DNA of 64,000 nt from Halorubrum salinum (GTDB lineage Archaea; Halobacteriota; Halobacteria; Halobacteriales; Haloferacaceae): NCBI RefSeq assembly GCF_024494575.1, contig NZ_JANHDO010000004.1:186001-250000 (forward strand), in the 5' to 3' direction. Numbering within the stretch: position 1 is the stretch's first letter; the number at the start of each line of letters is the position of its first letter. The translations under genes and the position numbers were made by a program. Of this stretch, positions 30,845 to 40,094 are shown piece by piece. The notes beneath the pieces are model-generated. The model was not told where the DNA came from. It saw only the letters and a program-made list of their open reading frames with translations, and made no database searches.

Positions 30845-32332
30845 TCACCGCCGCCAGCGGTGGACCTGATACGCGCCGCGTTCGTCGCCGTCGCCGTCGT
30901 GGTACGCGACCGGCTCCTCGACCGCCGCGACCGCCTCGTCGGTCAGCGCGACCGCGGTCGCGACGCCGTCGGTGTCCGCGGCCGACACCGCACCGGTTCC
31001 GAGGTCGAACAGGCGTACCCCGTGAACCGACGGGTCGCGGTCCCGGAAGTGCTGTGCCGCCGGCACCGCCAGCGCGTCGTCGGTCCCCGCGACGTGGTGC
31101 GCGAAGCCGCCCACGTCGGCGCGCCAGCGCTCCGTGCCCGCGAGGTCGACGCCGACGGCGGTGTGTTCGGCGGGGTGGCGTGCGGCCGTCTCGCGGCCCT
31201 CCTCGGGGAAGGTGTTGCCGACGACGAACGCGACGCCAGCGGGGCCGGCGTGGACGTGGTTGGGGTAGGCGTACACCCGGTCCGTCGGCGCGTCGGCGTC
31301 CGCGTCGCCGCCGTCGCGCGCCCGATCGACGGGCGTGCCGAGGTCGACCGACGCCCGGACCGTCCCGTCGCGGTCGAGCAGATAGCCGCGGTAGTCGGCG
31401 TGACTCGCGACCGCGTAGCCGCCCGGGGTGAGCGCCACGTCGCCGACGGGCCGGGCCGCGTCCGGATCGCCGCGCTCGCCGCCGGCGTCGGGCGCGCGGC
31501 GCGGGTCCCACCGCAGGCGGACCTCGCCCGTCTCGGGGTCGAGCGCGACCAGCCCGTCGTCGTGGGCGTCGGGTTCGGGACAGCGGTTGTACGCGACCGC
31601 GACCCGGTCGCCGTCGGCCGCCACCGCGATCGGAGAGGCGGCGGCCGCGTACCGCCACGCGACGGTCCCGTCCGGGTCGATCGCGTAGACGACGCTCTCG
31701 AAGCGGCGGGCGGTCGCGTCGCCCTCGGTCTCTCGACGCTCGTACCGTCGCGCGGCGGCGTACCCCCGGTCGCCGTGCGTCTCGATCGCGGCGACGAACG
31801 GGTACCAGAAGCGCGTCTCCTTCGCGGGCGGCCCCACGTCGTCCGCCGTCGACAGCCGCCAGCGCTCGTCGCCGTCTGCGTCGACGAGGCGGACGAACCC
31901 GTGCTCCCCCCGAGTGCCGACGAGAACTCCGTCGTCGAACGGCGTCAGCGCGACGACCGGCTCGTCGCCGGAGAGCCGCCAGCGCTCGGGGGCGAACTCG
32001 CCGGCGGTGTCGTCCTCGGCGGGGTGGCGGAGCGCGTCGCTCTCGCCGCGACCGGCGTCGTCGTCACGCTCGAACGCCCGGAGGTCCCCGTCGGCGGTGC
32101 CGACGACGACCGCCTCGTCGGTCAGCGCGACCGCGGAGCGGCGTCCCCGCTGACGCGAGCCGCCGGGATCGATCTCGCCCAGCGAAGCGACGGCGTGGGC
32201 GGAAAGCGCGGGGTCGATCCGCGGGGGATCGGTCGTCGAGGGATCGGTCGTCGAGGCGTCGGTCCGCGAGTCGGCGGTCGTTCCGGGGTCGTCACCGTCG
32301 CCCTCGCCCTCACTCCTCGACGGGGAAGGCAT
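30845..32332 (-). CDS. cytoplasmic beta-propeller (PQQ-like repeat) protein of the cobalamin operon
   Basis: The 495-residue protein begins MPSPSRSEGEGDGDD, an acidic leader without a signal peptide, so it should stay in the cytoplasm. The body is made of about seven repeated blade segments with VVVGTADGDLRAF, VVALTPFDDGVLVGTRG, YAIDPDGTVAWRY, VALDPETGEVRLRW and VALTPGGYAVASH, as in PQQ-type propellers. It is the last gene of the cbiT operon, overlapping the DUF3209 gene by 23 nt. No catalytic residues can be assigned. A scaffold or corrinoid-handling role is only a guess. Confidence 0.75.
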   Translation of the reverse strand: MPSPSRSEGEGDGDDPGTTADSRTDASTTDPSTTDPPRIDPALSAHAVASLGEIDPGGSRQRGRRSAVALTDEAVVVGTADGDLRAFERDDDAGRGESDALRHPAEDDTAGEFAPERWRLSGDEPVVALTPFDDGVLVGTRGEHGFVRLVDADGDERWRLSTADDVGPPAKETRFWYPFVAAIETHGDRGYAAARRYERRETEGDATARRFESVVYAIDPDGTVAWRYAAAASPIAVAADGDRVAVAYNRCPEPDAHDDGLVALDPETGEVRLRWDPRRAPDAGGERGDPDAARPVGDVALTPGGYAVASHADYRGYLLDRDGTVRASVDLGTPVDRARDGGDADADAPTDRVYAYPNHVHAGPAGVAFVVGNTFPEEGRETAARHPAEHTAVGVDLAGTERWRADVGGFAHHVAGTDDALAVPAAQHFRDRDPSVHGVRLFDLGTGAVSAADTDGVATAVALTDEAVAAVEEPVAYHDGDGDERGAYQVHRWRR

Positions 32333-32681
32333 CGTGGAGGTCGTGGTGGGTCTCGCCGAGCCCGTCGAGCAGGTCGTCGCCGTGGGTCGCGAGGCGGGCG
32401 AGGCTCCGCTCCGCGTCGCGGACGGCGACGAGCCGGCCGCGGACGTAGTCGGCCTCGGGGTCATCAGCGTCGAGCGTCGCGACCTCCTCCTCCAAGTCGA
32501 CGAGCGCGGCGTCGAGGTGGCGACGGAGCGTGTCGAGCGTCTCGGCGGTCGCGAGCCCCTCGATGGGGCCCGCGAGCTCGCCGTCCAGTTCCTTCTCGGC
32601 GTGCTCGCGCGCGGCGCGGTCGTCGGTGCCGAGGACGTTCATTAAGCCGAGTCGTAGCGCTTCGAGTTCGTGGCAGCTCAT
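32310..32681 (-). CDS. DUF3209 family protein
   Basis: The 123-residue protein begins MSCHELEALRLGLMNVLG and is almost entirely helical and acidic. I believe it is DUF3209, a family of unknown function that I associate with haloarchaeal cobalamin clusters. Cys3, His4 and the C-terminal HHDLHD pattern (GETHHDLHDAF) could bind a metal, which would suit cobalt handling. It starts 1 nt after the cbiX stop and overlaps the propeller gene, so it is firmly in the operon. Confidence 0.75.
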   Translation of the reverse strand: MSCHELEALRLGLMNVLGTDDRAAREHAEKELDGELAGPIEGLATAETLDTLRRHLDAALVDLEEEVATLDADDPEADYVRGRLVAVRDAERSLARLATHGDDLLDGLGETHHDLHDAFPVEE

Positions 32682-32682
32682 G

Positions 32683-33912
32683 TTACTGTAGGGTGTCGTG
32701 GACGAGATCGGAGACGATGCGCTCGCGGTCGAGGTGCGAGGAGACGATGCGGTCCGCGTCGGACTCGTCGACGCCGCCGTACCAGACGCCGTCGGGATAG
32801 ACGGCCACCATCGGGCCGTCGCCGCACTGGTCGAGACAGGAGGTCCGCGTGACGCGCGCGTCGCAGGCGTCGGAGTCGCGGACGGCCTGCCGGAGCCGCT
32901 CCAACACCGCGGGAGACCCGGCGGCCGCGCAGGTCTGGTTCGTGCAGACGGCGACGTGGTTCGCGGGCGCGTCGTGGGCGTGCGGGTCGTCGTCGACGTC
33001 CTCGCGGTCGGCGTGGGCCGCGCTGTGGGTCATCGCGCGCAGCATGGCGCGAGCGCCCCCCTCGTCGGCCTCGTACCCGTCGAGTTCGACCTTGTACTTG
33101 CAGGTGTCACAGGACATCTCGACGCTCCCGGTCCGGGCCTCCTGCCAGCGGTCCGCGAGCACGTCGAGCAGCCGCGGGTCCGTCCCGAGGGGCTCGCCCG
33201 GGGCCGCGTCGACGTAGGGGTACTCGGCGTCGAACGACTCCGCGCCCTCCTTGATCCGGCCCGTGAGCACGCCGTCGCCGAGCATGTACGGCACCACGAC
33301 GACCGCGTCCGGCCGCCCGCGAGCGACGCGGTGGAGCGTCTCGTCGAGCGTCGGGTCGGTGACGCCGATGAACGTGGCGCGCGCGTCGGCGAACTCGCGG
33401 CCCTCGTACAGCAGCCGCGCGAGCTTGTGCACGTCGGCGTTGGCGTCGGGGTCGGAGGAGCCGCGGGCGCACAGCACGACCACCACCTCGTCGTCGGCGC
33501 GGTCGACGCCCAGCTCGCGCTCGACGGCCGCAGCGCGGTCGTCGAGCAGGTCGAGCAGCGCGGAGTGGACGCCGAGGTGCGAGCCGTTGCGGATCTCTAG
33601 GTCGGGGTGGTCGGCCCGCGCCCGTTTCACCGCGAGGGGCACGTCGTTCTTGACGTGGCTCGCCGCGAAAAGCGAGAGGTGGACGACCGAGACGCGCGAG
33701 ACGCTCCCCGCGAGCCCCGCGATCGCCTCGTCGATGGCGGGCGAGGCGAGTTCGAGAAACGCGGCGTCGACCGGGATCCCGAGCCGCGACTCGAGGTCGG
33801 CCGCGAGCGTCCGCACCTGCTCGTTCGACTTCTCGCGGCGCGAGCCGTGCCCGACGAGCAGCACCGCCTCGTCCGAGAGCGCGGCCGGCGTCGGGGCGGT
33901 CTCGCTGCTCAC
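32683..33912 (-). CDS. cbiX: sirohydrochlorin cobaltochelatase CbiX with C-terminal 2Fe-2S ferredoxin domain
   Basis: The 409-residue protein starts at GTG 33912. Two CbiX-type domains (about 15-135 and 143-260) carry LLVGHGSRREKSNEQ (His22) and LFAASHVKNDVP (His86), the metal-binding histidines. Then comes an MXCXXC motif, MSCDTC at 266-271, as in the long bacterial CbiX, and a His-rich linker (295-320). The tail (~318-409) is a thioredoxin-like [2Fe-2S] domain with Cys323, Cys328, Cys359 and Cys363. It inserts cobalt early into sirohydrochlorin. It overlaps the preceding gene by 4 nt. Confidence 0.93.
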   Translation of the reverse strand: MSSETAPTPAALSDEAVLLVGHGSRREKSNEQVRTLAADLESRLGIPVDAAFLELASPAIDEAIAGLAGSVSRVSVVHLSLFAASHVKNDVPLAVKRARADHPDLEIRNGSHLGVHSALLDLLDDRAAAVERELGVDRADDEVVVVLCARGSSDPDANADVHKLARLLYEGREFADARATFIGVTDPTLDETLHRVARGRPDAVVVVPYMLGDGVLTGRIKEGAESFDAEYPYVDAAPGEPLGTDPRLLDVLADRWQEARTGSVEMSCDTCKYKVELDGYEADEGGARAMLRAMTHSAAHADREDVDDDPHAHDAPANHVAVCTNQTCAAAGSPAVLERLRQAVRDSDACDARVTRTSCLDQCGDGPMVAVYPDGVWYGGVDESDADRIVSSHLDRERIVSDLVHDTLQ

Positions 33913-34655
33913 GCGCGCTCCCCCTCGCCGACGCGCTCGACGCTCTTTTCGGTCTTGGTCCGCCGCTGCGGCGCGAACAGTCCGGACTCCCCGCTCCCCT
34001 CGTAGAGCCACTCGCCGAGGGCCGGGCCGACGTCGTCGTCGACGCCGAACCAGTACCCGCCCGACGACGACTCGTTCAGATCGCCGTAGGGGGCGTCGAC
34101 CGGCGCGGCGTCGAGGTGCGCCCTGACGGTCGCGAGCAGCGCCTCGTCGTCGTGGACGACGGAGATGCCGACGGCGTTCGCGTCCGACTTGTAACACACC
34201 GTCCCGCAGCCCTCGATCAGCCCGCGGAGGAGCTGGCGGCGGTGGTCGGCGAGCGCCGAGAAGCGGTAGCCGCCGTCGGGGATGTCCGAGGCGTCGTCGG
34301 CGTCACCGCCGGAGTCGACCCCGCCGGTCGGGAGTCCGAACGCCGCGGCCGCCCGCCGGGCAGCGGGCGTCTCGACGGCGACGACGTACTCGTCGCTCGT
34401 GCGGGTCACGTCGGTGTCGTGGGCGTACTCGCGTTCGGTCACCTCGCGCTCGCGGTCCACGTCTCGCGCGCCGAACAGCGCCGCGACCCGCTCCGCCGCC
34501 GGCGCGCCGCCGACCCGAACGCGCACCTCGTCTCCGTCGATCGCGCCGTCGGCGGCCACGCGGCCCCACAGGTACGCGGCCTCGGGCGTCGAAGCGAGGA
34601 GATCGTCCGGAGCCGTCGGCAGCGGGGCGTCGGTCCAGTCCGCGCGCCCGCTCAT
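33909..34655 (-). CDS. LAGLIDADG-fold-like protein of the cobalamin operon
   Basis: The 248-residue protein is not a known cobalamin enzyme by motif. It has two segments resembling LAGLIDADG helices: YLWGRVAADGAI (28-39) and LLRGLIEGCGTV (142-153). After the second comes ISVVHDDEALLATVRAHL and a GEWLYEGSGESGLFAPQRR tail, as in DOD homing-endonuclease domains. Asp36 is kept in the first motif, but the matching acid in the second is Cys150, so DNA cleavage is unlikely. Overlaps of 4 nt with both the ferredoxin and cbiX genes show it is a fixed operon member. The function is unknown. Confidence 0.65.
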   Translation of the reverse strand: MSGRADWTDAPLPTAPDDLLASTPEAAYLWGRVAADGAIDGDEVRVRVGGAPAAERVAALFGARDVDREREVTEREYAHDTDVTRTSDEYVVAVETPAARRAAAAFGLPTGGVDSGGDADDASDIPDGGYRFSALADHRRQLLRGLIEGCGTVCYKSDANAVGISVVHDDEALLATVRAHLDAAPVDAPYGDLNESSSGGYWFGVDDDVGPALGEWLYEGSGESGLFAPQRRTKTEKSVERVGEGERA

Positions 34656-34906
34656 TCGCCGTCCCCCTCCGCGACCGTGATCGCGTCGAGCGGGCACGCC
34701 GCGGCCGCCTGCTCGGCGTCCGCGATCCGGTCGTCGGCGAACGTCGCCCTCACGCTCGCTGCCGTCCGCTCGACCGACTCGGCGTCGTCGGCGTCGATCC
34801 CCGCGAGCCCCTCGTCGTCCTCCACGAACCGGGGGTCGCGGACGAGGCACGCGAACACGCCGTCGCAGGCGTCGCGGTCGACCGTCACCGTGTAGCGTTC
34901 GCTCAT
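34652..34906 (-). CDS. 4Fe-4S/3Fe-4S ferredoxin
   Basis: The 84-residue protein resembles single-cluster ferredoxins. Cysteines appear as CDGVFAC (14-20) and ACPLDAI near residues 70-75, so the middle Cys of the usual CxxCxxC is Val. That pattern is typical of [3Fe-4S] or flexible clusters, as in P450-type ferredoxins. It follows cbiH2 by 1 nt and overlaps the LAGLIDADG-like gene by 4 nt. It may supply electrons for a corrin-ring step such as the ring contraction or cobalt reduction, but the partner is not shown. Confidence 0.8.
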   Translation of the reverse strand: MSERYTVTVDRDACDGVFACLVRDPRFVEDDEGLAGIDADDAESVERTAASVRATFADDRIADAEQAAAACPLDAITVAEGDGE

Positions 34907-40031: not shown

Positions 40032-40059
40032 CGGTTCCACGAGAGGAAGCCCGCGTAAT

Positions 40060-40094
40060 AACAATTTGGGTTGTTCTAAGAAAAGTTATATTGA
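40060..40094 (-). promoter_or_regulatory. promoter and inverted repeat of the cbi operon
   Basis: On the minus strand a TATA-like CAATATAA (about 40086-40093) is followed about 22 nt later by the inverted repeat AACAA-N6-TTGTT (40060-40075). The repeat covers the predicted start site, about 30-44 nt before the cbiT ATG. The same ACAA-N6-TTGT layout appears at cbtB. Confidence 0.5.

Follow-up and report, generated by a model that had tools for sequence, protein, structure and literature searches.

A gene in the cobalamin cluster of Halorubrum salinum encodes a protein that is modelled as a pseudo-dimeric LAGLIDADG fold and whose nuclease centre looks dead from its sequence. In haloarchaea that possess a haem-copper oxidase (COX+), the gene is a constant part of the de novo cobalamin set, in most cases translationally coupled or closely packed. 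We see about an even chance that the protein has been domesticated and, without cleaving DNA, assists cobalt-early corrin synthesis in haloarchaea that respire O2, and its role is probably biosynthetic rather than DNA-cutting.

Genomic setting

The window, the whole stretch of 64,000 nucleotides that was analysed, contains the features collected in Table 1. The LAGLIDADG gene sits in a haloarchaeal cobalamin cluster, for which Halobaculum offers an annotated parallel. The cluster opens with a CbtA-like gene and a ferredoxin-like gene followed by cbiT, L, F, G, H1 and H2, and continues with the 4Fe-4S ferredoxin, the LAGLIDADG gene, cbiX-[2Fe-2S], DUF3209, the PQQ-like beta-propeller, chlID and cobN. 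The initial annotation had described an operon gene of 248 residues overlapping both neighbours by 4 nt, and this is what the open reading frame shows: it shares ATGA with the ferredoxin gene (34652-34655) and GTGA with cbiX (33909-33912). The real start of the beta-propeller frame probably lies nearer to the end of the DUF3209 gene than 32464.

Table 1. Features of the cobalamin cluster and of the LAGLIDADG gene, in window coordinates.
Feature	Position	Strand	Basis or remark
LAGLIDADG-fold gene, 248 aa	33909..34655	(-)	ORF, ATG start; AlphaFold pLDDT 88.1 and Foldseek LAGLIDADG matches
4Fe-4S single-cluster ferredoxin	34652..34906	(-)	Pfam Fer4_15 5e-16; ATGA overlap with LAGLIDADG gene
CbiX with C-terminal thioredoxin-like [2Fe-2S] domain	32683..33912	(-)	Pfam; GTGA overlap with LAGLIDADG gene
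DUF3209 protein, HVO_B0053 position	32310..32681	(-)	Pfam PF11483 2e-51
PQQ-like beta-propeller ORF, HVO_B0052 position	30845..32464	(-)	Pfam PQQ_2 4.5e-6
First LAGLIDADG-like motif, residues 28-39	34539..34574	(-)	Residue 36, the acid position, varies among orthologues (D, S, N or G)
Second LAGLIDADG-like motif, residues 142-153	34197..34232	(-)	Catalytic Asp replaced by Cys150
Near-invariant second-half strands, residues 151-168 (GTVCYKS...VGISVVH)	34152..34205	(-)	Per-residue entropy
Conserved CAA-N6-TTG element, directly upstream of cbiT	40058..40074	(-)	Operator-like; not needed by LAGLIDADG gene

By position, the gene is the orthologue of Haloferax volcanii HVO_B0055, which occupies the same place between ferredoxin B0056 and cbiX1 B0054 and is labelled 'function unassigned', with neither fold nor function given (PMC8305020); Haloferax orthologues are included in the family alignment. 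Searches of GTDB contigs yielded 166 confirmed relatives, the best 80 of which were used for locus analysis. Within these 80, the closest relatives come from Halorubrum and Halobaculum, and all names are haloarchaeal except one labelled 'Euryarchaeota' only. The ferredoxin stands upstream and CbiX downstream in 80/80 loci, which upholds the early view of a stable operon gene next to cbiX as opposed to a mobile insertion.

The B12 clusters of Thermus (pTT27, L152) and Leptospira (L153) likewise place DUF3209 straight after CbiX, so that DUF3209 could be a partner of CbiX in general. Unlike the haloarchaeal cluster, both of these have CbiD annotated; the Thermus and Leptospira plasmid records yielded no relative of the LAGLIDADG protein.

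A predicted pseudo-dimeric LAGLIDADG fold

Compared with Pfam, the window protein gives only a sub-threshold match to LAGLIDADG_3 (E=0.21), whereas 42 of 65 orthologues match this family at E<=1, the best at E=3.6e-5. In sequence searches of the PDB, neither the protein alone nor the family profile found a match, so that the relationship is visible only via the orthologue Pfam hits and fold comparison. The family profile has a distant similarity to an intein LAGLIDADG domain (E=0.0036); a profile-profile comparison with one intein group gave a weak match, the score being low because that group is nearly uniform.

The AlphaFold model of the window protein, built with 65 orthologues (pLDDT 88.1, pTM 0.88), has a helix-strand-strand-helix-strand-strand-helix topology that is present twice. 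The two LAGLIDADG-like helices with family-like segments recognized in the initial annotation recur in the model as predicted helices at residues 24-36 and 133-150, each followed by the expected strand-strand-helix-strand-strand-helix order. In a Foldseek comparison with the PDB, ranks 1-41 are all LAGLIDADG proteins, headed by archaeal I-Tsp061I (2dch, 5.2e-7), with intein endonucleases, I-SceI, I-DmoI, the bI3 maturase and WhiA at lower ranks; such agreement in structure goes far beyond what chance would give. L077, a Halonotius orthologue that shares 49% identity with the window protein, was modelled at pLDDT 90.2 and retrieved nothing but LAGLIDADG proteins among the 50 matches listed, the best at 2.1e-8. 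By query length, the best matches reach moderate TM-scores of 0.54 and 0.61.

Two alpha-beta-beta-alpha-beta-beta-alpha repeats in the models, and a profile match in orthologues that stays below cut-off for the window protein alone, place the family in the LAGLIDADG superfamily with a predicted pseudo-dimeric fold. A missing structural match or an orthologue of another fold would have spoken against this assignment; both models are LAGLIDADG. Pseudo-dimeric homing endonucleases (I-Tsp061I, I-DmoI, I-SceI, PI-SceI, PI-PfuI) likewise carry two repeats per chain with the same helix and strand order.

Loss of the catalytic positions and one-sided conservation

Homing endonucleases have a catalytic acid ending each LAGLIDADG helix. 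Here the first is variable and the second is replaced: Cys150, which had been noted at the second position from the window protein, is found in 65/65 sequences of alignment A2 and in 18/19 of A1; it is not universal, since L012 has Ala and G205 has Thr. Since the catalytic acids are lost or variable, DNA cleavage is presumably no longer performed, in agreement with the original proposal of a domesticated, probably non-cleaving protein. The fold and the distant similarity to the intein domain would suit an active or recently mobile homing endonuclease, a reading that we regard as almost inconceivable: the gene is free-standing and coupled to both neighbours, it is neither an intein nor an intron insert, it shows none of the varied sites expected of a mobile element but one operon place in 80/80 loci, and it is inherited together with the cbi genes.

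The two halves of the old DNA saddle differ in conservation. The second-half strands are far more conserved than those of the first half (mean entropy 0.62 vs 1.46 bits, p=1.4e-4). The second half includes the near-invariant segments GTVCFKS, VGISFVHD and SSGGYWFG as well as conserved Arg/Lys; half 1 is variable and bears acidic residues on its first strand. A reader of a long pseudo-symmetric DNA site should keep both halves, and the LAGLIDADG protein keeps one. All orthologues inspected retain Cys154 and His79, and Cys150 and His168 are nearly invariant, a set of residues that is compatible with metal or corrinoid binding.

Co-occurrence with de novo cobalamin synthesis

The genome survey comprised 242 genomes of the class Halobacteria, 127 of them CbiG+ and 115 CbiG-, with CbiG as the marker of de novo B12 genes. 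The LAGLIDADG gene is present in 123/127 CbiG+ and 0/115 CbiG- genomes, and this co-occurrence indicates that its function is tied to the de novo corrin branch. No homologue outside Halobacteria was found in the phylum sample, and the plasmid matches are all haloarchaeal. One genome (G044) retains a copy of about 30-35% identity although it is unlinked from cbiG. A protein that binds some other RNA or DNA target, for example a maturase-like helper that owes its operon place to linkage alone, could draw on the bI3 maturase among the Foldseek matches and on the richness of haloarchaea in LAGLIDADG inteins, a likely source. Linkage does not explain the strict co-occurrence with CbiG, which includes the unlinked copy in G044, and we consider such a helper quite improbable.

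The G044 copy (L116:9825-10421) is diverged, encodes 198 aa and adjoins a rhodanese-like gene, apart from the cbi genes. Another genome (G064, L148 and L149) has its cobalamin cluster in two parts ~1.5 Mb apart; the LAGLIDADG gene remains with cbiH1, cbiH2, cbiX and DUF3209, and its product carries a repetitive Ser-Asn-Ala-Thr insert between the halves.

The element before cbiT and the case for a regulator

WhiA (DUF199), a Foldseek match with a degenerate, host-fixed LAGLIDADG domain, is the nearest precedent for a LAGLIDADG domain that is both domesticated and dead. It has lost LAGLIDADG catalysis and binds DNA via a C-terminal HTH (PMC3781837). This precedent, the small 4Fe-4S protein encoded by the neighbouring gene and the strongly conserved operator-like element ahead of cbiT are what one would expect of a WhiA-like, DNA-binding transcriptional regulator of the cobalamin genes, perhaps redox-coupled to the adjoining 4Fe-4S protein as in WhiA-WhiB. 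The element, ACAAnCnnAATTGTTnT, is near-invariant and precedes cbiT in most of the 80 loci; its CAA-N6-TTG pattern is observed once in the window against zero expected, and Haloferax and Natrialbaceae apparently have it more than once. Possibly it is a B12 operator, so far uncharacterised, that overlaps the core promoter.

The element was first considered as the operator of the LAGLIDADG protein and then dropped from that role, since it persists where the gene is absent: in all four CbiG+ genomes without the gene (G043, G045, G060, G095) and in a further cluster that lacks it (G468). The LAGLIDADG gene is therefore not required for the element's upkeep, and a conserved operator confined to genomes with the gene is not what CAA-N6-TTG represents; a regulator might still act through a different operator. 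The gene's absence from every CbiG- genome, where a B12 regulator could have served salvage, also counts against a regulator, as does the variable and partly acidic half 1 of the saddle. No HTH domain was found in the Pfam scan or in the AlphaFold model, which ends in LAGLIDADG C-terminal helices; the neighbourhood and the phylum differ from those of WhiA as well. Of the two functions initially suggested, the regulator is thus weakened, and we judge it unlikely, whereas the corrinoid- or metal-related role fits better.

Two vacant pathway steps

The CbiD step (cobalt-precorrin-5B C1-methyltransferase) and the CbiJ step (cobalt-precorrin-6A reductase) are unassigned in haloarchaea, and the LAGLIDADG gene is one of four candidates for them (PMC8305020). 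CbiD is present in 0/242 genomes and CbiJ never rose above the cut-off. Scans of the window protein and its orthologues gave no match to the CbiD or CbiJ families, and none exceeded the cut-off in the genome. The absence of CbiD and CbiJ was rejected as a sign of gap-filling, the same gaps being present with and without the LAGLIDADG gene. Three genomes (G043, G045, G060) have CbiG yet lack CbiD, CbiJ and the LAGLIDADG gene, so the gene does not explain the gap unless these organisms use something else, and the Foldseek matches indicate a fold that differs from known methyltransferases or reductases. That the protein is the enzyme for either step strikes us as very improbable.

A module with a possible link to oxygen respiration

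Among the four CbiG+ genomes without the gene, G043, G045 and G060 are the sole CbiG+ genomes in the sample without haem-copper oxidase subunit I (COX1). Absence of the gene and absence of COX1 are associated among CbiG+ genomes (Fisher 1.2e-5), with only two lineages behind the association. Strictly anaerobic, cytochrome oxidase-negative haloarchaea are known (PMC5437934). The clusters of these three genomes retain cbiT-L-F-G-H1-H2-cbiX and cobN, and have also lost the ferredoxin, DUF3209, the beta-propeller and the [2Fe-2S] domain of CbiX; in the two loci read (L112 and L114), a His-rich CbiX tail replaces that domain. G468, a further genome of the G045/G060 genus, has the same module-less cluster.

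The ferredoxin, the LAGLIDADG gene, DUF3209, the beta-propeller and the CbiX 2Fe-2S domain (30845-34906) behave as a single module, and CbiG+ haloarchaea that have no haem-copper oxidase lack it (loci L112, L113, L114 and L151).

G095, the last of the four exceptions, is COX1+ and retains the rest of the module without the LAGLIDADG gene. Exactly where that gene would be, between the ferredoxin and the full-length CbiX, stands a second, short CbiX that carries a His-rich tail (L115:12202-13143). Either the gene is replaceable, or B12 synthesis is impaired in G095. The idea that the LAGLIDADG gene and a His-rich CbiX tail strictly replace each other was dropped, as locus L059 carries both.

A possible accessory of cobalt-early corrin synthesis

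The preferred reading, a non-cleaving accessory of corrin synthesis, draws on the fold in two orthologues, the co-occurrence with CbiG, the fixed place, the retention of the unlinked copy in G044, the joint loss of the module in three COX1- CbiG+ genomes and G468, the conservation in the second half of the saddle, and the short His-rich CbiX at the gene's place in G095. The LAGLIDADG protein would have its place in the early, cobalt-inserted part of corrin synthesis, beside the 4Fe-4S ferredoxin to which it is coupled and the cobaltochelatase CbiX-[2Fe-2S]. A small ligand, either cobalt or an O2-sensitive cobalt-tetrapyrrole intermediate, would be bound by the second half of the saddle together with His79 and conserved Arg/Lys; alternatively, these parts would serve as a docking site for another member of the module, for example CbiX. 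The requirement for the protein, or its usefulness, would be tied to running the cobalt-early ('anaerobic') B12 route inside an O2-respiring cell. Against the accessory role, conserved Arg/Lys at 231-234 near the C terminus could have a nucleic acid role, the oxygen link comes from two lineages, and COX1+ G095 does without the gene.

Significance

The sequence and position of this gene family were known before. A literature search turned up no earlier account of its fold, of the lost catalysis or of a connection with oxygen respiration. To our knowledge, the domesticated LAGLIDADG proteins described so far work on DNA or RNA or belong to transcription complexes. Among the four genes of the haloarchaeal B12 cluster without an assigned function, one gains a fold, an oxygen-linked phyletic pattern and candidate residues, and the idea that the LAGLIDADG gene fills the two vacant pathway steps is weakened. 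Tentatively, and at somewhat less than even chances, the LAGLIDADG fold may here have turned to a non-nucleic-acid task, as a cobalt- or corrinoid-handling or scaffold part that aids the O2-sensitive cobalt-early B12 pathway in air. A LAGLIDADG family fixed in a metabolic operon would widen the range over which this fold has been recruited.
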